Below are positions 4,726 through 58,205 of a DNA stretch of 64,000 nt, one piece after another (within the stretch, counting starts at the first letter, position 1; each line of letters begins with the position of its first letter). The notes under the pieces are model-generated. The model had not been told where the DNA came from and ran no database searches. It saw only the letters and a list, made by a program, of their open reading frames with translations. The stretch covers positions 49,328 to 113,327 of IMG/VR virus record IMGVR_UViG_3300001373_000002; one strand, 5' to 3'. The position numbers and the translations under genes were made by a program. The DNA is from a virus.

Positions 4726-4754
4726 ATTATATCATATATCTTTTTGGTTGTCAA
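4726..4754 (-). promoter_or_regulatory. near-perfect sigma-A-type promoter (leftward)
   Basis: TTGACA (4754-4749), 17-base spacer, TATAAT (4731-4726), with TGA just before the -10 (extended -10) and an A-tract upstream of the -35. It sits in the last codons of the membrane-protein gene and points at the microproteins at 4694 and 4492. Confidence 0.85.
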
Positions 4755-4995
4755 TACTTTTTTTTACATTATTTAAATTATTTTTCTTTATTACTTTAGC
4801 TATAAATAAATCTATAAAGTATCTTGGAATGTAGTTTATAGAAAAACATGTAAATAAGCATATTGCAAATCTATCAAGGGCTGAATCTACACATATTTCA
4901 AGCTTTATAGTTATTAAGAAAATCAATACTATAGACGACATAGATAGTATCATTGTTGATATAAATTCTGATAGGAACTTATCTAATTTATTCAT
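4732..4995 (-). CDS. membrane protein, two predicted transmembrane segments
   Basis: 87 residues. Two hydrophobic stretches, about residues 12-33 (rich in I, L, S, ending ILFLITI-like) and 42-62, connected by a short polar link, with a lysine-rich tail (KKNNLNNVKKS). It is probably an inner-membrane protein of unknown job; a holin role is not supported by context. Start overlaps the upstream stop by four bases. Confidence 0.65.
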   Translation of the reverse strand: MNKLDKFLSEFISTMILSMSSIVLIFLITIKLEICVDSALDRFAICLFTCFSINYIPRYFIDLFIAKVIKKNNLNNVKKSIDNQKDI

Positions 4996-5435
4996 AAGTT
5001 ATCTGTTTTAATCATATATATAACTGCGTCAACACGATTGTCTTCGAGTTCTTTACGTATAATATCTATAAGGAAATTATATTTATCCTTATCTTCTAAG
5101 TAAAACGCAATAGAACATATGTTTCTGCGTGCCCAATCCTTAATATTACTTATATTTTTGCGAATAAATTCAATATTTCCGTCATAATCATCATGTCCAA
5201 TATATGTCAAGGCAGAACTTACAAAAACTCTGTCTGAAAATGTCCAATCATTACGCATTGATAAGAAATTTATACTAGATAGAAATCTTGCATAATCAGA
5301 CTTGGCTGTCTTGTTAATACTAAAACACTCTTCTACTATTTTGTTATTCATTCCTTCTCCATCACGTCCGCTTATAAAAAAATCCACACGTCTTTCTTCT
5401 TTCTTGTATTCTTCAATATCTAATACTTCTATCAT
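4992..5435 (-). CDS. hypothetical protein, 147 aa
   Basis: Not recognised. Mostly alpha-helical by composition, with no cysteine cluster or membrane span. It overlaps the nucleotidyltransferase stop by four bases upstream and the membrane protein start by four bases downstream, so the three are one translationally coupled unit. Confidence 0.7.
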   Translation of the reverse strand: MIEVLDIEEYKKEERRVDFFISGRDGEGMNNKIVEECFSINKTAKSDYARFLSSINFLSMRNDWTFSDRVFVSSALTYIGHDDYDGNIEFIRKNISNIKDWARRNICSIAFYLEDKDKYNFLIDIIRKELEDNRVDAVIYMIKTDNL

Positions 5436-6484
5436 ACTTTCACTCCTTTGTTATTTTTTATATTTCCAACTACAATTCTTTCGTTTACCGACATTGTAAA
5501 ATCTCTTATTTTCTTATAGTCGGGCTTATCTGACAACTCTGTGTTTTTCTTTGCGTATTCTAACTTTTGTTCGTAATCTGCTATTATGTCGAAGAATTCT
5601 GTCACAACTTGCTTATTATCGTCTAAATATTTACCATTTCTTATATCCATTAATAGATCATGCTCAGCGTCTCTATAAGTTACTATCTTTTGTTTCTCAA
5701 GTATATCTAAGCACATAATATATAATCTTAATAGGTGGCACATATGCTTTCCAAGTTTATCATGTTTCGCAGCGTTTTCGTTACGCTTACCTAAAACTCC
5801 ATATTCTTTTACAATCGACTGCATTTCTGACATCATCGACTTATAATCTCTTAATGGATAATTCTTAAAGTTTACATCCATAAAAATTTCAGTATCATAT
5901 TCTTCTTGTGCTGACTCGCCAATATACAAATTGATATTATCATCATCGTTGCTAAAATACCTATCTTTAAAATAATATTTGGCATTATTCAGTGTATTTA
6001 ATATATGCTGCTCTCTTTCAGAATGAGATACGTCACGTTTAGATTTGTTAGTAAGTCGTCTAAGCTGTTGATTGGCATATCCTCCAAATGAATGAATTGC
6101 TAGTTTTGATAAGAATAAATCGCTATTATCTAAAAGTTCTTGTCCAATATCGCTAACATGTAAATAATGTTCTTTGTTACATCCTAGAATTTCAATAGTG
6201 TTTGGATTGCAATTGGTTAAAAGTGTGATTATTTTGTTAAATGAATAAATTGTAGTGTCAGTTTCGTTGTTAATAAATTGGTTAAAGTTACTATTTGTCA
6301 AGATATCTTCTTTTGAGTTTAAAGCAATTCCTCTTACATCTAGGTCACTGTCTTCGTTGTTAGTGCCATAAGCATAACTTCCACCAAGTGTTAGTAATAT
6401 TATATTATCTTTTAATCTTGGTTCATCTCTAAGAAAGCTATATTTATCCGAATTTACTAACTGTTTGATTTCTTCTAAATTCAT
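5432..6484 (-). CDS. DNA polymerase beta-superfamily nucleotidyltransferase
   Basis: I start at the ATG at 6484 because AAAGGAG precedes it; this gives 350 residues. Near residue 35, LGGSYAYGT followed by SDLDVRG is the GS...D.D signature of polymerase-beta-type nucleotidyltransferases (metal-binding aspartates in DLD). The family (RlaP-like) is common in large phages and bacteria and its substrate is unsettled; RNA or tRNA is often suspected. Here it is coupled to two unknown genes and follows a DNA methyltransferase. Confidence 0.85.
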   Translation of the reverse strand: MNLEEIKQLVNSDKYSFLRDEPRLKDNIILLTLGGSYAYGTNNEDSDLDVRGIALNSKEDILTNSNFNQFINNETDTTIYSFNKIITLLTNCNPNTIEILGCNKEHYLHVSDIGQELLDNSDLFLSKLAIHSFGGYANQQLRRLTNKSKRDVSHSEREQHILNTLNNAKYYFKDRYFSNDDDNINLYIGESAQEEYDTEIFMDVNFKNYPLRDYKSMMSEMQSIVKEYGVLGKRNENAAKHDKLGKHMCHLLRLYIMCLDILEKQKIVTYRDAEHDLLMDIRNGKYLDDNKQVVTEFFDIIADYEQKLEYAKKNTELSDKPDYKKIRDFTMSVNERIVVGNIKNNKGVKV

Positions 6485-6509
6485 GACTCGCTCCTTTCTA
6501 AAACACATA

Positions 6510-7265
6510 TTAACCATTATTCCAAACTTCTATTTTAGTGTCTATACACGCAATGTGATTATTAATTCTTTTATTTGATATGTTGTAATAATTCCTATCT
6601 AGTTCGAATCCTATGTATTGTCTATTAGTATTTATACATGCTATAGCGGTACTCCCGCCCCCTATGCAATTATCCATCACAACTTCGCCGTCGTTTGTAT
6701 ACGTTTTAATTAGGTATTCTAATAGAGCTACTGGTTTTTGTGTTGGATGTACCGTATTTTTATCACGCTTAAATTCTATAACCGACAAAGGATATCTTTC
6801 ACCTTCACTTTTTGAAATATGTCCACCGCAGCTTTTATCGTAATTATAACTCTCGCTTCCGCTTCCTTGTTTGCAAATATACGGTTTAAATCCCAATCTC
6901 ATTTGTGGGTTATATGTAGGAGTTTTCTTGTAAAATACTAATATATTCTCATGATTTTTTAGTGGCATCTTTTTAGCGTTAAGAAATCCAGTTCCATTCT
7001 CTTTTTGCCATATCCATTCATACTTTAGGTTTTTTATGTTGCTACATCCCAATACTTTGTCAAATGGAGATTGTGCAAATAGTACGATAGCTCCATCGTC
7101 TTTTATTACTCTATTATAAGCGTTCCACAACTCTTGTAAATCGATAACAGTATCCCACTTGTTTCTAGTAGTTCCATATGGCAAATCACATAAAATCATA
7201 TCAATTGATTTGTCATTTAATTTTTTCATTCCTTCTATGCAATCTTCATTATATATTTCATTCAT
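6510..7265 (-). CDS. DNA adenine-N6 (beta-class) methyltransferase
   Basis: 251 residues. EDCIEGM near the start, then the catalytic CDLPYGTT (a DPPY variant of motif IV) near residue 28, HPTQKP near residue 171, and DNCIGGGSTAIAC as the AdoMet-binding motif I near the end. The DPPY-first, motif-I-last order defines the beta class. Motif I is odd: most relatives have DPFMGSGTT. With no partner nuclease nearby, it probably protects phage DNA from host restriction. AAAGGAG precedes the ATG. Confidence 0.9.
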   Translation of the reverse strand: MNEIYNEDCIEGMKKLNDKSIDMILCDLPYGTTRNKWDTVIDLQELWNAYNRVIKDDGAIVLFAQSPFDKVLGCSNIKNLKYEWIWQKENGTGFLNAKKMPLKNHENILVFYKKTPTYNPQMRLGFKPYICKQGSGSESYNYDKSCGGHISKSEGERYPLSVIEFKRDKNTVHPTQKPVALLEYLIKTYTNDGEVVMDNCIGGGSTAIACINTNRQYIGFELDRNYYNISNKRINNHIACIDTKIEVWNNG

Positions 7266-21596: not shown

Positions 21597-23102
21597 TTAC
21601 ATAATCTCTTTTAAAATATCTTCTAATGGCTGATATCTTTCAGAGTTAAGTACGTCTAACAATACTTCATATGGATCCATTTTGTCAGATAACACCATCT
21701 TGAAAGTGTTTACTGAAAATCCACTTACTAAGGCAACTCCAAGTTCATTTTGAATTACTGGAATAGTACTGCTTCTTGAACATACATTCCAAAATACCAA
21801 CCTTGGCATATTATATCCATGATCTTTGAAATCTTGTGTTAGCTTGTCAAAGATTCTTACTTCTGCATTTTCTTTGCATTCGTCAAATTCCATATCGGAT
21901 ATAACCAAAATATTACTTGGCAAATCCTCTTGTTTCATATTGCCATTAATCGCAGTGTCGAGAATAAGCTTAAACACAGCCTCGATGTCGGTGTTACTTA
22001 CTTCCCATTCATCATTAGCTCTGTGAAGTTTTGCCAATAATGAATCGCGTCCGCTTAAATCGACAAGCTGAGGTTTACTTGAAAACGTAATAAACTTATC
22101 CTTAAACTCTCCACTACACCTTTCTGAAAAATATATAGAAAGTGAAGTAGCTACATCGTGTGCAGTTACAGTGGTATTTCCTACACTTGTACCCATACTA
22201 CCCGAACCATCTCTTACGACAATTGTATTCGAATTTCCATCAACAATATCTTTCTGATTAGCCCACAACATTTCAAGATTACTGTCTAAGTCTGTGCGAT
22301 ACTCACTTTTATACCTAGAAACTATCTCGTATGGCATAAGAACTCCAGCGTTAACAGTCTCTTCTCCACTTTTAACCTTCTCTATAAACTCTGAACGCCT
22401 TGCTTCGTCATGCTTATAGAACGCTGCGTTGTAAAGAAGATTATTCTTTGATGTAATTGTCTTGTAGTTAATTTCATCCCATCTTCCACTACACATTTTA
22501 ACTTCTACCACGTCGATATATCTTCTAAGACTTGATAATGCTTTTCTATATTCCTTTTCAGTAAGTCCAAGATATCCGCTTACAATTTTTCCAAGTCTCT
22601 TAGTATTCTTAGAGCTTGCATTAATAGATGGTAGCCACTTACCAAGCAATGAAACTTCTTGATCATTGTCTAAAGCATTAAGATCTTGATCAAGAGTACG
22701 TTTGATCATTGATAATACTAATTCTGACAACTTTGTGTCTAGTAAGCATAAAATGTCGTCGAATCTTCCATAGAAAGGAATAAACTTAATTAAATCCTTT
22801 ACCACTTCTTTGTTGTTTTCAGCCAAATAGCAAATAATAATCTTGAACAAATTTCTTTCTCCTAGTCCTTCTCTTATATCTCTGGCGTAAAATAACCACT
22901 TGATTGAATTCTTTGCATCTTCGTCATAAGCCTTAACAAAAGATTTGATAATTTCTTCACTCGTAGAATTTCTAAATGAAGAAACTTTAAAATTTAAATC
23001 CAATAAATATTTTCCAGTAGTCTTATATCCTAAACCACCATTCTCTGTGATACTAAAATTGTTATCTAAATCTAACTGTTTTTCTAATTTTGTAATAAAC
23101 AT
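21597..23102 (-). CDS. DUF2828 protein: helical domain plus von Willebrand A domain (Ro60-like architecture)
   Basis: 501 residues. N-terminal helical half with LFYARDIREGLGERNLFK, GRFDDILCLL, and the characteristic TEKEYRKALSSLRRYIDVVE, then GRWDEINY and YNAAFYKHDEARR, which I recognise as DUF2828. The C-terminal half is a vWA domain with an intact metal-binding DGSGSM at residues 298-303. This helical-plus-vWA layout parallels TROVE/Ro60, the RNA-binding ring that carries Y RNAs; that link is inference. A tRNA-like RNA and four hairpin RNAs lie directly upstream on the same strand, and a related element directly downstream. AGAGGAAG precedes the ATG. Confidence 0.85.
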   Translation of the reverse strand: MFITKLEKQLDLDNNFSITENGGLGYKTTGKYLLDLNFKVSSFRNSTSEEIIKSFVKAYDEDAKNSIKWLFYARDIREGLGERNLFKIIICYLAENNKEVVKDLIKFIPFYGRFDDILCLLDTKLSELVLSMIKRTLDQDLNALDNDQEVSLLGKWLPSINASSKNTKRLGKIVSGYLGLTEKEYRKALSSLRRYIDVVEVKMCSGRWDEINYKTITSKNNLLYNAAFYKHDEARRSEFIEKVKSGEETVNAGVLMPYEIVSRYKSEYRTDLDSNLEMLWANQKDIVDGNSNTIVVRDGSGSMGTSVGNTTVTAHDVATSLSIYFSERCSGEFKDKFITFSSKPQLVDLSGRDSLLAKLHRANDEWEVSNTDIEAVFKLILDTAINGNMKQEDLPSNILVISDMEFDECKENAEVRIFDKLTQDFKDHGYNMPRLVFWNVCSRSSTIPVIQNELGVALVSGFSVNTFKMVLSDKMDPYEVLLDVLNSERYQPLEDILKEIM

Positions 23103-23141
23103 AATCTTCCTCTTTTCTTTTCATTTTTTTATTTAATCACT

Positions 23142-23190
23142 AGATACCATATTCATCGCATATGATTTTTTTAATTTGCTGCGTGTACCT
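23142..23190 (-). ncRNA. CAGCAA hairpin RNA module E
   Basis: On the minus strand a 7-bp stem (UAGGUAC/GUAUCUA) encloses ACGCAGCAAAUUAAAAAAAU and an inner hairpin CAUAU-GCGAUGA-AUAUG. The wobble pair in the outer stem forms only in minus-strand RNA. Last module before the DUF2828 gene. Confidence 0.6.
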
Positions 23191-23217
23191 ATGATTATGT
23201 TTTATTTTTTACTTACA

Positions 23218-23265
23218 AGATGCCATATTTCATCGCATATGATTTTTAATTTGCTGTTAACATCT
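23218..23265 (-). ncRNA. CAGCAA hairpin RNA module D
   Basis: Outer stem AAGAUGU/GCAUCUU (seven pairs with one U-G), then UAACAGCAAAUUAAAAAU and inner hairpin CAUAU-GCGAUGAA-AUAUG stacked on the 3' strand. Lies four bases after the tRNA-like RNA. Confidence 0.6.
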
Positions 23266-23268
23266 TAA

Positions 23269-23380
23269 TCGACACAGTAGGGCTCGAACCTACGACATAT
23301 AGTTTTCTTTTTTATTGCTGTATAAATATTTTACAATATTTTAAATTTTGCTATCGCTCTCCCAGCTGAGCTATGTGTCG
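23269..23380 (-). ncRNA. tRNA-like RNA with expanded anticodon arm
   Basis: About 112 nt. Perfect 7-bp acceptor stem (CGACACA/TGTGTCG), D arm GCTC/GAGC enclosing AGCTGGGA, and T arm GTAGG-TTCGAGC-CCTAC are all intact, with A as discriminator and no encoded CCA. Between D and T arms there are 62 nt instead of about 23. Only a 4-bp ATAG/CTAT anticodon-stem remnant fits, closing a loop of nearly 50 nt that holds an AAATATT/AATATTT hairpin and an ACAGCAA like that of the neighbouring modules. It therefore cannot be a normal tRNA. Alternatives: a tRNA split by an insertion, or a Y-RNA-type mimic. Confidence 0.75.
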
Positions 23381-23388
23381 AATCTACT

Positions 23389-23437
23389 AGATGCGCTTTA
23401 ACTTTAAAATAGTTTTTTTAATTTGCTGCTTACATCT
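23389..23437 (-). ncRNA. CAGCAA hairpin RNA module B
   Basis: Outer stem UAGAUGU/GCAUCUA, then AAGCAGCAAAUUAAAAA and a different inner hairpin, AACU-AUUUUAA-AGUU. The inner stem sequence has changed but pairing is kept. Lies just before the tRNA-like RNA. Confidence 0.6.
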
Positions 23438-23448
23438 ATTTTTTTACA

Positions 23449-23499
23449 AGATACGTTATTTTCATCGCATATGATTTTTTTAATTTGCTGCGTGTACCT
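23449..23499 (-). ncRNA. CAGCAA hairpin RNA module A
   Basis: Outer stem AAGGUAC/GUAUCUU with one G-U, then ACGCAGCAAAUUAAAAAAAU, CAUAUGCGAUGAAAA. It begins about eleven bases after the -10 of the promoter at 23510-23538, so it would be at the very 5' end of that transcript. Confidence 0.6.
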
Positions 23500-23509
23500 T
23501 ACTTTAATC

Positions 23510-23538
23510 ATTATATCATACTTATTTTTGCTTGTCAA
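23510..23538 (-). promoter_or_regulatory. perfect consensus promoter driving the RNA array (leftward)
   Basis: TTGACA (23538-23533), 17-base spacer ending TGA, TATAAT (23515-23510), with seven A's upstream. Transcription would begin right at module A. Confidence 0.88.
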
Positions 23539-23589
23539 CACTTTTTTTATTTATTTTTTTATTTAATTTGCATCAACTACTATAAAAAT

Positions 23590-23618
23590 ATTATATCATG
23601 TATATTTCAAGATGTCAA
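23590..23618 (-). promoter_or_regulatory. second perfect consensus promoter (leftward)
   Basis: TTGACA (23618-23613), 17-base spacer ending TGA, TATAAT (23595-23590), preceded by an A-tract. It lies between the Thg1-like gene and the first RNA promoter, so the RNA array has two promoters of its own. Confidence 0.85.
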
Positions 23619-23626
23619 TACTTTTT

Positions 23627-24349
23627 TTAAATTATTACTAAGTTATTTATATAATCTCTATTCTTTGTGAATATTGGTATTTCGTTATCGATCACCCATT
23701 CGCCAAGTCCGTTTCTTATGGCGCAAGATCCTCTTTTGAAACTAGTCTCGACATTATTCCAATTAATATCCTTCTCCATCAACATATCTTGTACCTCCGA
23801 CGTATTCTTAAATTGTAAAGACTTGTGAGAAAATACCGACTGAGCCAATCCATTTATACTATTCCTTGTGGCATCTTGCTGTCGCTAAACTAAGCAGTTA
23901 GCAGCGTCTCCTTTTGGTATGTTGAAAACTCTTGAGTCAAATGTAGCACTCTTAAGTTTTTCATATTTATCTATATTGCAACCGTCTATTCTACTACATA
24001 TACTCTTATTAAATTCCAAAGTAGCAATAGAAGCTGAAACGCTTACCATCTTTTGGATATTATTACTAAACCAAGGCTGAGTTTCAAGTCTAAAATAATC
24101 CACTATCAATAGCGTTATTTCGTCAGACTGTGTATACCCAAGCACGCAACCTTGTATTTTCTTGCACAATTGTAGCATCGTATCTTGCATCGCACCAGAT
24201 AAAACTGTGTCGTATGGACGATCTATTCCTTTGGCTAAAGTGTGAAACGCACAGCCGTCAAGTCTTATAATGACTGGAGTTCGTCTCATTAATTCTCCAT
24301 TACTAACTCTTTCATAAGCCTTCATTCTATCTCCTAGCGAATCTACCAT
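23627..24349 (-). pseudogene. Thg1-like 3'-5' RNA polymerase (tRNA-His guanylyltransferase family), interrupted by an in-frame TAG
   Basis: 241 codons in one frame with a single TAG at codon 155 (23887-23885). N-terminal motifs are intact: IIRLDGCAFHTLAKG with Asp31, and GYTQSDEITLL with Asp76-Glu77, the three metal ligands at nearly the same numbers as in human THG1. The TAG sits in CLV-stop-RQQDATRNSI, where relatives carry tryptophan (WRQQDATRNSI), so one base (TGG to TAG) explains it. The remaining 86 codons stay conserved (FSHKSLQFKNTSEVQDML, then KRGSC and DNEIPIFT). Family members add nucleotides to tRNA 5' ends; phage and bacterial forms are linked to tRNA repair. Either a recent nonsense mutation or readthrough. 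Confidence 0.9.
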
Positions 24350-41121: not shown

Positions 41122-41640
41122 GATAATCTCCTTAACTTTTAAGGCAAAGCGTAGCCATATATTTTTAATACTTAACGCAGTATATTATATATATCTATGT
41201 CGTTCGGTCTCATGAATTGCTTTTATTACAATATTAAGGTTGGATACAAGCCTCGCCGTTCTTGCTTTTTATTATGCATATCGTACACCGCATATAATAT
41301 TTGTTATAATATACTGCTTTAAATACTAAATACATTTTGTTACATTTATATTAAGCCTTTTCAAATATGCTCTAATTCCGATTTATTTTACATGAATACA
41401 ACAAAAAAATTGTTATACCATGCCATTTAAACACCGACGGACTAAGGGACTGCCTTGACTGGTCTTGGTGTATGGATAAGTTACGGACTTTTTATAGTTG
41501 TTCCCTGCTACAGTTTCAACTTGCCACAATACCATCTTGAAAATACTAATAACCATTACTGAATAATTCATGGTGTTCGTGGGTATTTAGGACTACGGAC
41601 AAACCAATATTTAATTGTAGATACCTATTCGGTACTATTA
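41122..41640 (-). promoter_or_regulatory. 519-base leader before the first leftward gene
   Basis: No open frame of note. It holds a perfect 13-bp inverted repeat (GCAGTATATTATA at 41177-41189 and its complement at 41305-41317), a hairpin ACCAT...ATGGT near 41540, ACACC...GGTGT near 41440, and GTCCGT three times within about 170 bases on the transcribed strand. It would be the 5' untranslated RNA of the leftward operon, long enough for a riboswitch-like or protein-binding element; no known class was recognised. Confidence 0.5.
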
Positions 41641-41641
41641 C

Positions 41642-41670
41642 ATATTATCACTATATAACTTGTTTGTCAA
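41642..41670 (-). promoter_or_regulatory. promoter for the leftward arm, proximal
   Basis: TTGACA (41670-41665), 17-base spacer ending TGA, -10 TAATAT (41647-41642), A-tract upstream. Confidence 0.7.
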
Positions 41671-41735
41671 CACTTTTTTTTAAAATGTTTCAAAACTTTG
41701 ATACTATGTAGTTGCTACCTTCTTGGTACTATTAC

Positions 41736-41764
41736 ATTCTAATACTATATAACTTGTTTGTCAA
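41736..41764 (-). promoter_or_regulatory. promoter for the leftward arm, distal
   Basis: TTGACA (41764-41759), 17-base spacer, TAGAAT (41741-41736). It shares the run AACAAGTTATATAGT and the -35 region with the proximal promoter, so the two arose by duplication. Confidence 0.75.
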
Positions 41765-42107
41765 CACTTTTTTTCATTATTTTTTAACTTTTTTTATACT
41801 ACAATATATAGTATTTTTATTATACAGTAACCACTATATATAGTATATTAATCATAATTTTCCAATTATTTCCAACTTATATTATTGTTTCGCCACAAAT
41901 AAACTTTTTTTATTATTATATATAGTAGAAACTTTTACATTTTTTATACCAATAATAGCCATAAACCTTTTATTTTCCTTGCTTTTTAGCCAATTTTAAA
42001 AGTGTTTTTCTTGCAGTTTATACATATAAAATAAATGTTTAGTGTCTGCTACCAGTAGTTTGTTTGTAGTCTTGTATGATATCCACCATAATCCACCATA
42101 TACCTTT

Positions 42108-42124
42108 AAAACGCACCAGAACGC
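42108..42124 (+). repeat. dispersed repeat copy 1
   Basis: AAACGCACCAGAACGCC, the shortest copy of the AACGCACYAGAATCG... family. Confidence 0.5.
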
Positions 42125-42284
42125 CCAAATTGGCGAATACACACTACGCCTATATATTAATACCAATTTAAAATAAACGTGGCTATATGGCTAAATTCAC
42201 CTTTTAGTCGCAAACAAATGTCGTTTTCTGTCTTTCTACCACGTACACAAACGAAACTTGTATATATTTATTTTTTACCAATAG

Positions 42285-42740
42285 ATAACATAGTTTTCAT
42301 ATAGATTTAGTATAATATAATGATGGTATTTCATAGTAGTTTACTAGGAATTAAAAGATATAGATAATTGCAGTAGTATTATTCATTACCATATAACATA
42401 GTTTTCATTACTATATGTAAAAATTTGATAATTGCAGTATAAGTTTTAATTACTATATTATGTAGCTTTCATTACTACTTGTATAATTTTCAGCGACTCT
42501 TGGTATAATTTAAGAAATAACAATTATTATTTGTATTGGATAAGAAAAACATATGTTCGATGGTATATGTTCGATTTGTGTATCATTGTATTAGTGAAGT
42601 GATACATCGGTCCTTATGGGATCTAAATATAGAACAAACGTTCGACTTAATGGCAATGGAATAACGACATACAGTAGCAGTATAGAACGCATGTTCGAAC
42701 ATAAGTATTTATTGGAATATTACAAGTAATTGCAGTAGGT
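42285..42740. repeat. direct-repeat cluster (iteron-like)
   Basis: ATAACATAGTTTTCAT occurs at 42285 and 42393, with a degenerate copy at 42457; GATAATTGCAGTA occurs at 42363 and 42427, with a variant at 42725. The two repeat types alternate. Iterons of this kind are typical of replication origins, but no initiator gene is recognised nearby. Confidence 0.55.
42547..42698. promoter_or_regulatory. SOS-box-like operator cluster
   Basis: Two perfect GAACN4GTTC sites, GAACAAACGTTC (42632-42643) and GAACGCATGTTC (42685-42696), plus AAACATATGTTC (42547-42558). GTTCGA occurs four times within 150 bases. GAACNNNNGTTC is the Gram-positive LexA/DinR operator. Alternatively these bind a phage regulator. 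Confidence 0.6.
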
Positions 42741-43212
42741 TATTAATTGGAAAATATTGGAAATACAAATATATTATAGTAATCCCATGGTAATGTATAT
42801 TTATGCAGTAATTTGGTAAATAGTGAATATTTATGCAAGATTGAATAGTATTGTGGAATTGGAAATAATTGGAAAAAGTAAGAGTACTATGACAGTGGTA
42901 TTATATTAATTAAGTATTAACAAGTAATTAAATATAATTAATATGCAGGATATAATTATTGATACTAGTAAGTGATACATAGTAGTAAATGGGATTGATA
43001 GGAGTTGTGAAAAATGAATGATGGGAATGAATGATGTGAAATGAAATGAAAATAATTGTGAGAAAAAGAATGATTTTTTTATATAAAAAGTTGACAAAAG
43101 TTTCATGTTTATTACCCTAAAATACGCCCAAAATATGGATATATGCAATTTTGACGATTCACACAAATATCATAATAGTGTCAAAATATCATAATAATAC
43201 TAATCATAACTA

Positions 43213-43228
43213 TGTTTCACGTGAAACA
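43213..43228. promoter_or_regulatory. parS-like site 4 (16/16)
   Basis: TGTTTCACGTGAAACA, exact consensus, in non-coding DNA. Confidence 0.92.
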
Positions 43229-44032
43229 TTTATAACATTTGGTATTTGATAAAATGGTATTATATGAAATACAAACCTTGGAAAGCCTTATAAACAAAGG
43301 GTTTGCGGGGGATAGTTCACATCTAAAATATTTTCCCAACTTAAAATCCCAACACTATCTATCCCTCTCTATCCCCAACTCAATTTTGTCACGATTATTT
43401 CATCCTCTCACCCCACCACCCACAACACATATCCTATTTTAACTATATTCCTCGTACTTTAACGTTGTTCCTTGATTCAGCAAAAGCCACGAAGAACTAA
43501 CCAATCTTTACAATATCATTCTAATTTACAATATTTTCCAAATTAAACATTTATCAATAGATCACCAACTCTAACTTATACATTTCCAATTATTCACAAA
43601 TTAACAATTCTAAAATTTAACACTACATCCTATTCCAAATATTTCCAAATCTATAATATTGACAGATATGCTGCACAATGATATAATATTACCATCAGAT
43701 CAATTTCATAACCACCATTATCAATTTACAATTATTTACAATTATAACATTTTATCACAGTCTAATATTGTCACAGAATTTGGATTTTCGACGACATGAG
43801 TTTTGTCACGATTGCTGTCATGTAATTAAATATCTTCATATATGGCGACATTTTTTAACCACCATAAATCATCAAAATAATGCCACTAAAATCATTAAAC
43901 TTTTAACCACCGATTAGCCACTCTTTGAATTTACAGATATTACCAATTGGACAATTTTAATCCATGATCAATATCGATAATCACCAACTATCAGATTCTT
44001 GATAGCAAACTGTGGTCATAGCATACCCCTAG

Positions 44033-44058
44033 AACGCACCAGAATCGATTTTAAGACA
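44033..44058 (+). repeat. dispersed repeat copy 2
   Basis: AACGCACCAGAATCGATT then TTAAGACA; matches copy 3 at 25 of 26 positions. Confidence 0.6.
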
Positions 44059-44279
44059 CTTTATAGCCTAACGTATATATTTATGCCAAAAAGGATAATC
44101 ATGGTCGATTTAAGGCGTATATGGCGAACATTTATCAATCGCTGCTATTTCGTCCAAATATTCCCAGATTAACGATATATCTTACAGTCTATGCCGATAA
44201 TACATTCTTGTTGGCAAATATCCCATTATTGGCTATCAAAAACATGGTTGGTAAATTTTACATTCACACATACCATTGT

Positions 44280-44305
44280 AACGCACTAGAATCGATTTTA
44301 AGACA
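44280..44305 (+). repeat. dispersed repeat copy 3
   Basis: AACGCACTAGAATCGATT then TTAAGACA. Confidence 0.6.
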
Positions 44306-44348
44306 TCAAAACATATTTTTTGGATATTTCCTTGCTTAAAAAATAAAA

Positions 44349-44377
44349 CGTCTTATTTTGGATTCTGATGCGTTGTA
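44349..44377 (-). repeat. dispersed repeat copy 4, inverted and degenerate
   Basis: ACGTCTTATTTTGGATTCTG then ATGCGTTGT; reverse-complement form of the family. Confidence 0.45.
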
Positions 44378-44565
44378 GGGCATATAGCCAAAACTAGATT
44401 ATTTTCCAAGAATAGAATATGCCAATAATGGAATAGGGCACATTGGTTGGTAGAATGGCTTGTTTTGGTAGAATGCGTGAACTATTCAAAGGGTTTGACT
44501 TTAAAAGATAAATAAAAAAAATAATAAAAATTCAATAAAATTGGTTTTTATTTTAATGGATTTTT

Positions 44566-44603
44566 GAGGGTATGATTATCACGCAAGTGATAATTGTGCC
44601 CTC
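44566..44603 (+). other. 17-bp hairpin with GCAA tetraloop
   Basis: GAGGGTATGATTATCAC, GCAA, GTGATAATTGTGCCCTC. Seventeen pairs with three G-U wobbles that pair only in rightward-strand RNA. The inner TTATCAC/GTGATAA is perfect. A candidate promoter begins ten bases downstream. Confidence 0.6.
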
Positions 44604-44612
44604 GTACACTTG

Positions 44613-44641
44613 TTGACAAACCCTAAAATCCTAGATATAAC
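44613..44641 (+). promoter_or_regulatory. candidate rightward promoter into the CTAG repeats
   Basis: TTGACA (44613-44618), 17-base spacer, TATAAC (44636-44641). No gene follows for 1.6 kb, so it may make a non-coding RNA. Confidence 0.55.
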
Positions 44642-45015
44642 CACGTTCCTAGGATATAACTATACTCCTAGACAATAACTATAAACCTAAAACACAACAG
44701 TAATCCTAGACATAACTTAGCAACTAGATAATAACTATAATCCTAGTATATAACTAGATGACTAGAATATAATATACTCCTAGAATATAACTATAATACT
44801 AGATAATAATATATAACTAGATAATAACTATGATACTATAATATAACTAGATTACTAGATAATAATAAACATAATACTAGATAATAACTATAATCCTAGT
44901 ATATAATAAACATAATAATATAATATAACTATGATAATATATAATAACTATAATACTAGTATATAATATATAATATAATACATAAAACATACTACTAGAA
45001 TATAACTATATAATA
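44630..45015. repeat. tandem CTAG-rich repeat array
   Basis: About 18-22-base units of the type CTAGATAATAACTATAATC, roughly 18 in a row with changing length, ending in ATATATAA-rich sequence. CTAG, rare in many bacterial genomes, appears almost once per unit. Confidence 0.6.
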
Positions 45016-45683
45016 TATATATAATAAACACTAATATAATATATAAAACCTAAAGACTAAGTACAAAAGATAAAAGATAAGTTCAAAAGATTAAATACAC
45101 GACAAAAATACTACGTATTTTCGTCTTTCAAATCTAACATATTCATTACATTCATATGTTAGATTTATTATAATGCTTTTATTATCTAAGATCTTTAAAA
45201 GATATTAATAACAATAACTAGTAATTAACTAAATTATATTAATAATATACACAATTTAATAAATTAACAGAATATTTACTACGACCAAGATATATATTGG
45301 CAAATAAAATACTCTAAAATAACCCATAAATTATAGTTAAAAAATACCTAAATTTTGCTATAAAATACTAATTCATGATTGTCAAATAATTATGTCATTT
45401 CTCTAAAATAATACGTGACATTCTGTCAAAATCTAACATTTAAATATGGTAAAATATGTAAATAAATACCATATAACCAAACGTATGTTATACACTAATT
45501 ATGATTATGGTGGTAAAAAATGATCGACTAGATGGCGAATATGCAATAATAAATATGTATACTTGAATAATATGTATAAATATGCAGCATAAACACTAAA
45601 ATTATACATGATGGCAAATAAAATCATATGACAAAACGATAATATTTGTTGGAAACTATAAAATATATCGCTAGAGTACTATT

Positions 45684-45710
45684 TAAACGCACTACAATCA
45701 AATTCTAGCC
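45684..45710 (+). repeat. dispersed repeat copy 5
   Basis: AAACGCACTACAATCAAATT then CTAGCC. Confidence 0.5.
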
Positions 45711-45752
45711 ACTAAATCATATATATTGAGCAATACTATGCCTATTTTATAA

Positions 45753-45787
45753 AACGCCTTAAAATCGATTCTGATGCGTTACAATGG
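45753..45787 (-). repeat. dispersed repeat copy 6, inverted
   Basis: ACGCCTTAAAATCGATTCTG then ATGCGTTACAATGG; inverted relative to copies 2 and 3. Confidence 0.55.
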
Positions 45788-48898: not shown

Positions 48899-49375
48899 GT
48901 GAGAATTAACGACTTAGAGGAAAACAAGGTGTATGTACGCATCGACGACGAAAGCAGCAAAGCTATATTATACAAGATAAGTAATGGCGATTTGTTATAT
49001 GGCGATTTGTTATTTAGGTTTAATCAGATATCAGAATGGGATTTAAGCAAAGCAGAATACAACGAAGTGTCTAAATGGAAGTTTAGAGAGTATGACGAAG
49101 ATTTGTCAAATAAGTTTATTGAGTGGCTAAAGCAAGTAGATGGTAAATTTAAATATATGGCTGTTGATAAATGCGGAATCTTAGTTTTTGCAACAGAAAA
49201 AATGAAATATGTGGCTGTATTTGGATGGCGCACTAATTACCATCTTAATCATGGCTACGAGTTAGAAGATACAGCAATTGAGTTAGATATTAGCCTATTT
49301 GGTATATCGAATCCTTTTACTTTTGACGATGGATGTATGCTTATAAGCAATATAGTAAGAAAAGTTACATATTAA
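48899..49375 (+). CDS. tandem family protein 6, longer copy
   Basis: GTG start after TAG. INDLEENKVYVRIDDE, FIEWLKQVDGKFKYMAVDKC, then NPFTFDDGCMLISNIVRK. 158 residues, with an insertion in the middle relative to its neighbours. Confidence 0.75.
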   Translation: MRINDLEENKVYVRIDDESSKAILYKISNGDLLYGDLLFRFNQISEWDLSKAEYNEVSKWKFREYDEDLSNKFIEWLKQVDGKFKYMAVDKCGILVFATEKMKYVAVFGWRTNYHLNHGYELEDTAIELDISLFGISNPFTFDDGCMLISNIVRKVTY

Positions 49376-57531: not shown

Positions 57532-57735
57532 ATGGATGAATATAAAACTACAATATGTTTAGGCAATCGTGACGTTGACAATTTATTAAATAATCAATCG
57601 GCATCAAATCGCAGACCATATGAAGATATTTTTGGTAAAATGCGTGATCTTACGAACGAAGAGTATGAAGAAAGTCGTAAATCGCTAGATGATATATCAG
57701 AATTTATTGGAGTAAATTTCTTCGACTTGTGTTAA
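57532..57735 (+). CDS. hypothetical protein, 67 aa
   Basis: Start ATG 57532, AAGGAG upstream. Acidic-polar, YKTTICLGNRDVDNLLNN start. Not recognised. Confidence 0.65.
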   Translation: MDEYKTTICLGNRDVDNLLNNQSASNRRPYEDIFGKMRDLTNEEYEESRKSLDDISEFIGVNFFDLC

Positions 57736-57761
57736 TGCATGTATTAATTAAAGGAGATGTT

Positions 57762-58205
57762 ATGACTAAAAAAGAAAAGTTAATAGAAGAATACAATAAG
57801 CTAAAAGAAGATAATATAATTAGTATACACATGTTTTTAAAAGTTCATGGAACTGACGAAACAATAATATCTACAAGTGTAGGACAAAAGATTGATTTTA
57901 TAAAAGATACATATGACGACGACTTGAAAAAGAATTTTGACAAAGAAATAGAAATATTGGACGTCACATTTATGATAAATGGGATATTGTCATTTGGAGA
58001 GGCACTAGGGCATCTTGAATGGGGAAAAGGAATTAGACTTAAGTCTTGGAATAAAGAAACTGTAATAAAATTGCAAATTCCAGATTGTAACAGTAAGATG
58101 ACCGCAAACTATTTATATGTAGATAGTTTAAAAGGCAGAGTTCCGTGGATTCCTAATATGATTGAAATACTTAGCGATGAATGGGAAGTCGTGGCAATAG
58201 TTTAA
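57762..58205 (+). CDS. Tad2-like (DUF2829) anti-Thoeris protein
   Basis: 147 residues from ATG 57762 (AAAGGAG upstream). The C-terminal half has SFGEALGHLEWGKGIRLKSW, then YVDSLKGRVPWIPNMIEIL and SDEWEVV, the DUF2829 pattern (FGEAL..L..GK...R..W ... PW.P......DWE). Tad2 proteins bind the cyclic ADP-ribose signal of the Thoeris defence. An extra N-terminal 60-residue helical-beta region is unusual. Adjacent to the phosphoesterase and glycosyltransferase. Confidence 0.85.
   Translation: MTKKEKLIEEYNKLKEDNIISIHMFLKVHGTDETIISTSVGQKIDFIKDTYDDDLKKNFDKEIEILDVTFMINGILSFGEALGHLEWGKGIRLKSWNKETVIKLQIPDCNSKMTANYLYVDSLKGRVPWIPNMIEILSDEWEVVAIV

Follow-up and report, generated by a model that had tools for sequence, protein, structure and literature searches.

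The window, by which we mean the whole stretch of 64,000 nucleotides analysed here (positions 49,328 to 113,327 of IMG/VR virus record IMGVR_UViG_3300001373_000002), encodes on its minus strand, at 23380-23269, a 112-nt tRNA-like RNA that is probably an unpermuted Y RNA of the YrlA type and a ligand of the Ro-like ring protein that the phage itself encodes. Judged by its sequence, the RNA is a member of a widespread class and no damaged tRNA. In its members the anticodon arm holds a 7-bp hairpin joined to CAGCAA by a short linker, a DUF2828 gene lies nearby, and the pairing of such an RNA with a Ro-type gene recurs in many other phages and in some gut bacteria. The Y RNA reading is carried by established points, namely the anatomy of the RNA, its place in the class, its co-occurrence with a gene of Ro fold and the permuted form found in other Ro phages. 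The RNA is composed of the following parts.

23269..23380, minus strand: tRNA-like RNA, unpermuted, with a capped stem and CAGCAA replacing the anticodon arm (sequence, Rfam RF00005, model R1)
23374..23380, minus strand: acceptor stem, 5' strand (Rfam tRNA match and model R1)
23356..23371, minus strand: D arm, 4 bp, loop AGCTGGGA (Rfam tRNA match and model R1)
23351..23354, minus strand: anticodon-stem remnant, 4 bp, 5' strand AUAG, partner 23299-23302 (sequence)
23324..23341, minus strand: presumed Ro-binding stem, a 7-bp hairpin with a GUAA loop as cap (model R1, helix covariation in relatives)
23315..23320, minus strand: CAGCAA motif, 3 nt 3' of the 7-bp hairpin (sequence)
23299..23302, minus strand: anticodon-stem remnant, 4 bp, 3' strand CUAU (sequence)
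23277..23293, minus strand: T arm (Rfam tRNA match and model R1)
23270..23276, minus strand: acceptor stem, 3' strand (Rfam tRNA match and sequence)

The original prediction had described intact acceptor, D and T stems around an oversized insert, and all of this can be read directly from the minus strand: acceptor 7/7 (CGACACA/TGTGTCG), D stem 4/4 (GCTC/GAGC) and T stem 5/5 (GTAGG/CCTAC, loop TTCGAGC), the D and T stems being 62 nt apart. The 4-bp remnant (AUAG/CUAU), the 7-bp hairpin (AAATATT-GTAA-AATATTT) and ATACAGCAA are likewise all present, the hairpin being joined to CAGCAA by the linker AUA. The base at 23269 is the discriminator A, and CCA is not encoded. With the acceptor, D and T arms in common with ordinary tRNAs, and the T loop as well, the RNA scores 46.4 bits against the Rfam tRNA family RF00005 (gathering score 29; E 9.7e-07 for the whole window). 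It differs from them in having 62 nt where they have 23 and in lacking an anticodon stem-loop, which no single excision restores. ARAGORN did not call the 112-nt RNA as a tRNA. Single-sequence minimum free energy folding (z -2.4) kept the acceptor stem and lost the D and T arms, and it says little for the tRNA body. RF00005 was the sole family matched when positions 23100-23560 were searched against Rfam at E <= 1; intron families were unmatched, and a self-splicing intron was dropped as a candidate.

Much of the structural evidence comes from relatives. Among 88 non-redundant unpermuted RNAs, the acceptor strands of one sequence pair in 99.4% of cells, and those of different sequences in 48.5%. 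RNAalifold recovered the acceptor, D and T stems and the 7-bp hairpin unprompted from 45 aligned relatives, in which 94.7% of the cells of the named structure are paired and double changes occupy 337 cells; shuffles gave 90, and sliding the structure gave 49-90. Pairing of the acceptor, D and T stems partly reflects selection, because tRNA stems and the motif were what qualified a relative for the set; the 7-bp hairpin was no criterion in picking them. A covariance model, R1, built on these 45 relatives with the window RNA left out, gives the window RNA 82.5 bits (E 3.5e-17), far over the window's two ordinary tRNAs (41.7 and 39.9 bits) and over the best of 50 control loci (59.5 bits), which places the RNA within the class that R1 defines. 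R1 matches of at least 60 bits occur in 7 of 18 records: that of the window and those of Synechococcus phage B23, Serratia phage BF, Aeromonas phages AsFcp_2 and LAh_8, Vibrio phage Va3 and Klebsiella phage KP13-16, with members from B23 and AsFcp_2 present in the training set. B23 has a 110-nt 'tRNA-Undet' and AsFcp_2 a 117-nt one, each downstream of a member of the Ro-like gene family and each with a hairpin followed by CTGCAA or CAGCAA. A tRNA-like RNA of AsFcp_2 (L021:6669-6786) contains a second T-arm-like stretch, GGTTCGAATCC, within its long insert.

The 112-nt RNA ends 166 nt upstream of the start codon (23102) of a DUF2828 gene and is, in the manner of a Y RNA, encoded beside a Ro-type gene.

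21597..23102, minus strand: Ro-like protein, 501 aa, Pfam DUF2828 and DUF7788 (Pfam; predicted fold that of Ro60/TROVE)

Pfam assigns this protein to DUF7788 (1.5e-45) and DUF2828 (2.4e-33), with a weak match to VWA_2 and none to the TROVE domain at E <= 0.1. An AlphaFold model built with 44 sequences has a pLDDT of 89.4 and a pTM of 0.89, and all 11 of its Foldseek matches in the PDB at E <= 0.001 are Ro60/TROVE structures, among them that of Ro60 from Thermus phage phiLo (9l5y), with E from 8.6e-08 to 5.9e-04 and TM-scores by query length of 0.47-0.57. As modelled, the protein matches the Ro60 fold. The likeness to Ro60, Rsr and other TROVE proteins lies in this predicted fold, whereas the protein differs from them in its Pfam domains and has 10-16% identity to the solved structures; sequence profiles against PDB chains were weak (TROVE E 0.16, Ro60 E 0.34). 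Residues D298, S300 and S302, which do not vary in either alignment (A1 and A2), form a DxSxS, which we take to be the metal-site motif of the VWA part in Ro60/TROVE proteins. The gene family is widespread among phages, being present in 682 of 50,697 records, and some mycobacteriophage records label its member 'Ro-like RNA binding protein'.

The tRNA-like RNA is part of an array. The original prediction had likened its motif to that of the modules, and these exist in four copies, in each of which a stem of 7-10 bp surrounds CAGCAA; read along the minus strand, the order is M1-M2-tRNA-like RNA-M3-M4, followed by the Ro-like gene.

23627..24349, minus strand: Thg1-type gene, directly upstream of the array, one in-frame TAG at 23885-23887
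23590..23618, minus strand: promoter-like site 1, TTGACA-17-TATAAT (12/12), consensus match only
23510..23538, minus strand: promoter-like site 2, TTGACA-17-TATAAT (12/12), just 5' of the RNA array, consensus match only
23446..23502, minus strand: stand-alone module M1, 9-bp stem around CAGCAA (module scan)
23388..23438, minus strand: stand-alone module M2, 7-bp stem around CAGCAA (module scan)
23216..23267, minus strand: stand-alone module M3, 10-bp stem around CAGCAA (module scan)
23141..23191, minus strand: stand-alone module M4, 7-bp stem around CAGCAA (module scan)

Exact copies of a 30-nt module piece were searched for in IMG/VR, with 0 matches. Elsewhere in the window, at about 4726-4761 on the minus strand, a stretch matches at 86% the 36 nt with which the array query begins, which are the promoter-2 region.

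As relatives of the Ro-like gene, found with the protein alone, we took the best 80 of 597 tblastn matches, a non-random set. A stem-CAGCAA module lies on the strand of the gene in 72 of these 80 protein-anchored loci. Altogether they hold 249 modules on the gene strand, against 39 on the opposite strand and 18.0 per shuffled replicate, corresponding to densities of 0.36 and 0.056 per kb on the gene strand and the other strand and 0.044 per kb and strand in control loci. Long-insert tRNA-like RNAs number 52, in 29 of the 80 loci; C[ATC]GCAA is present in 49 of them, and all 49 share the strand of the gene. None of the five long-insert tRNA-like RNAs in 49 control loci has this motif. When redundancy was removed at 85%, 73 of the 80 loci remained, 66 with a module and 22 with the unpermuted RNA. 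Among 19 phage loci hand-chosen for diversity out of the 682 records, 2 have the unpermuted motif RNA, 6 the permuted one and 15 modules, with at least one of these in 16.

Searches that started from the motif led to the same gene family. Scanning IMG/VR for a pattern of D arm, CAGCAA and T arm returned 32 stretches, and 0 with a scrambled hexamer; DUF2828 is present in 24 of the 31 records from this first scan. A looser scan, with at least 120 matches, gave 39 loci with the full tRNA-like structure out of 106 new ones among the matches listed, and within those matches the DUF2828 test, limited to the 39 full-structure loci, was positive for 32 records. Most, although not all, of the records without DUF2828 (7/31 and 7/39) are short fragments. 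A second, composition-matched control hexamer was used because the first one contains CpG; it gave a tRNA-like structure in 5 of 120 loci among the matches listed, and DUF2828 in 1 of 50 records tested, a set made up of the five with tRNA-like structure plus 45 taken from the head of the list. The control hexamers and control loci exclude CAGCAA as a chance motif. Four loci (L326, L338, L343 and L369) belong to a separate class of long-insert tRNA-like RNAs with a different shared insert, in records without DUF2828. The pattern also occurs in 95 stretches of GTDB genomes, mostly Lachnospiraceae among the matches listed. The full structure is found in 71 of these 95, and at least 49 of the 71 have a DUF2828 ORF within the fetched stretch, a lower bound because the ORF search took in 80 of the 95 loci. 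The unpermuted RNAs at L377-L471 are in genomes of Lachnospiraceae and other Clostridia, often beside DUF2828.

These comparisons bear on two other accounts of the locus. According to the first, the RNA is a decaying tRNA gene hit by a chance insertion. It has no usable anticodon arm, and the adjacent Thg1-type gene has an in-frame TAG, yet the other three arms are perfect, the insert is a covarying element common to diverse relatives, and the long-insert tRNA-like RNAs of control loci have no such element. Nor did we see relatives in which an ordinary tRNA occupies the locus and one copy alone is damaged. Decay is barely credible as an explanation. The context of the Thg1 TAG (23885-23887, minus strand) is NCLV*RQQD; the remaining frame is open, and locus L006 appears to have tryptophan at that position. 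An alternative genetic code behind the split gene is unsupported, as 14 of 70 ORFs of at least 100 aa end in TAG under the standard code. Perhaps the Thg1-type neighbour belongs to the same RNA-metabolism group.

According to the second account, the array is a mere processing signal or an autoregulatory leader of the Ro-like mRNA and yields no free RNA. It is flanked by consensus promoters on one side and the start codon of the Ro-like gene on the other, and the absence of terminator-like sites between 22900 and 24000 would also suit such a role, but at least 20 of the 49 motif-bearing tRNA-like RNAs in the 80 protein-anchored loci are downstream of the start of the gene and therefore cannot be part of its leader. 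We consider this account improbable.

A permuted form of the RNA, in which CAGCAA is followed by the T arm, the 3' strand of the acceptor, a short loop, the 5' strand of the acceptor and the D arm, was found in Mycobacterium phages LeBron and Lolly9, Enterococcus phage Bill, Klebsiella phage KP13-16, Escherichia phage wV8, Bacillus phage FADO and 6 of the 80 IMG/VR loci. KP13-16 has both forms. The Rfam family YrlA (RF02553) matches permuted sites in the record of locus L243 (50.3 bits, E 5e-12), LeBron (39.8 bits), KP13-16 (39.7), Lolly9 (37.7) and Bill (34.4, and 43.2 at an adjacent place), and in wV8 and FADO only with E of 0.03 and 0.008. The YrlA gathering score of 69 was reached in 0 of 20 records, and neither the record of the window nor that of B23 has a YrlA match at E <= 1. 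In control genomes, 13 of 14 have matches at E <= 1, none over the cut-off, so only low E-values count. Most simply, the two forms would be circular permutations of one presumed RNA, cut open at the Ro stem in one case and at the acceptor end in the other.

The excerpts of a review (PMC8394870) that deal with YrlA describe the RNA's own ends as paired in the Ro stem, a basal stem that tethers Rsr, and a tRNA-like domain that binds PNPase and is a substrate for TruB and DusA. The 112-nt RNA resembles YrlA in its mimicry of acceptor, D and T arms, in its presumed Ro-binding stem and in adjoining a Ro-type gene, and against the family its permuted relatives in Ro phages reach as much as 50 bits. 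It differs in that its ends form the acceptor stem and are not paired in a Ro-binding stem, the presumed Ro stem being capped internally. The notion of a Y-RNA-like tRNA mimic, one of those offered in the original prediction, is thus well supported: the RNA is directly upstream of a gene with a predicted Ro60/TROVE fold, its anatomy recurs beside this gene family, and the permuted forms weakly match YrlA.

The first steps of the proposed mechanism concern the release of the RNA. The array M1-M2-tRNA-like RNA-M3-M4 and the Ro-like gene would be co-transcribed from the two consensus promoters, and the tRNA half, in which the acceptor, D and T arms are kept and both ends are conventional (5' and 3'), may be released as a tRNA-like body by RNase P and a 3' tRNA-processing enzyme. 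The Ro ring would bind the stem-CAGCAA elements, which in the 112-nt RNA means the presumed Ro-binding element (7-bp stem, GUAA cap, AUA-CAGCAA) that replaces the anticodon arm. The exposed tRNA-like half could then tether, or compete for, tRNA-binding enzymes of processing, repair or degradation, and through the extra modules of the leader Ro might gauge its own abundance. Presentation of a tRNA-shaped half by the Ro ring is transferred by analogy from YrlA. The Thg1-type and RlaP genes of the window, and the RNA ligase and RtcB genes near the Ro-like gene of Listeria phage CKA15, would suit a setting of RNA repair or tRNA protection. The RlaP family nucleotidyltransferase (RNA repair pathway) is encoded at window positions 5432-6517 on the minus strand (Pfam E 3.5e-17).

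A special case of this tethering or competing step is that the Ro-held tRNA-like body serves as a decoy that absorbs or blocks host tRNA nucleases. A tethered tRNA shape without a usable anticodon arm, the Thg1-type and RlaP RNA-repair genes within the window, and the role as competitive inhibitor suggested for YrlA in Salmonella in the pertinent passages of PMC7790460 are all consistent with a decoy. The window copy, however, offers no anticodon loop for cutting and would fool only nucleases that recognise the body, and we regard the decoy as possible, though on balance unlikely.

The anticodon arm itself remains to be considered. In most relatives it is perfect but interrupted: a single contiguous excision yields a 5-bp anticodon stem with U33 and a purine at 37 in 54 of the 88 unpermuted RNAs, as against 1.6% of shuffles. 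The excised part contains the motif in 53 of these 54, and the excision usually leaves 3-4 nt after the D stem. The restored loops suit many isotypes (Thr 11, Asn 9, Lys 6, Pro 4 and others), one of them reading a stop codon, and 34 of 63 bacterial relatives are likewise restorable by one excision. The window copy is different. Its best excision product scores 5/7, with 4/5 pairs, the loop AAAGAAA and no U33, and a 5-bp anticodon stem with a 7-nt loop containing U33 cannot be obtained by any single excision; the earlier statement that the RNA cannot decode as it stands holds for this copy. The class thus comprises interrupted but intact tRNA shapes together with pure mimics, the window copy being one of the latter.

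The idea of a removable insert, also raised in the original prediction, fails for the window copy and could apply to the 54 restorable relatives. In its intron-like form, the stem-CAGCAA element bound by Ro would be removed and the two halves joined to give a working tRNA. The excess of restorable RNAs over shuffles, the motif within the excised part, the restorable bacterial relatives and the RNA ligase and RtcB genes near the Ro-like gene of CKA15 speak for it. It is weakened by the unrestorable window copy, by the 34 of 88 relatives that give no perfect arm, by the missing Rfam intron match at the window's locus and by discriminator bases that are not tied to isotype (Lys: A 3, G 2, T 1), the last arguing against strict charging identity. 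We think such an insert quite unlikely. A wider version is a long shot as well: the Ro-type ring proteins of phages and some Clostridia would be accompanied by tRNAs of many isotypes in which a Ro-binding hairpin splits the anticodon stem near 28/29, as a reversible insert in many of them, and the window copy would be a derived mimic. If this is true, the Ro particle holds a tRNA inactive, cutting and ligation (by RtcB or RNA ligase) free a working tRNA, the split inserts are not self-splicing and the window copy has lost its anticodon arm.

Y RNAs bearing a tRNA-like half are already known; what the reading of the 112-nt RNA as a YrlA-type Y RNA adds is apparently one RNA in two circular permutations, one of them with an ordinary acceptor end, which would in principle open it to enzymes of tRNA processing, CCA addition and charging. 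The hairpin and CAGCAA inside a tRNA body also provide a sequence handle for candidate Ro ligands, which annotation programs miss or list as undetermined tRNAs. Chen 2014 is said to have described, for many bacteria and phages, Y RNAs that have tRNA-like domains and are encoded near Ro60. That work is cited for mycobacteriophages in the relevant portion of PMC12282133, where CKA15_055, a member of the Ro-like gene family, is called Rsr-like by HHpred and ncRNAs near it are proposed as Y RNAs. The same paper reports the CKA15 Ro-like protein in purified particles, with the authors' caution that the detected proteins may not all be genuine components of the particle, and places the most transcribed phage RNAs in the CKA15_059-061 region. 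We found three CAGCAA modules between CKA15_056 and CKA15_055 and, by module scan, none in the CKA15_059-061 region (L370:5480-6000). The putative Y RNAs of CKA15 thus share the Ro-like gene family with the window RNA, but the highly transcribed regions are outside the CAGCAA modules, and their identity with the modules was dropped as a candidate. Neither unpermuted forms nor CAGCAA are mentioned in the excerpts of PMC12282133, PMC7824862, PMC7765460, PMC9569102, PMC8394870, PMC7790460 and PMC11277228 that concern these RNAs. The novelty of the unpermuted forms is not proven, Chen 2014, Wang 2018, Sim and Wolin 2018 and Sim 2020 lying outside this scope.

Two further features of the window were observed. 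A Tad2-like anti-Thoeris domain is encoded at 57729-58205 on the plus strand. Positions 41122-45773 are poor in ORFs and rich in A+T-rich direct and inverted repeats, and this stretch contains arrays of the CTAGATAATAAC type at 44.6-45.1 kb.
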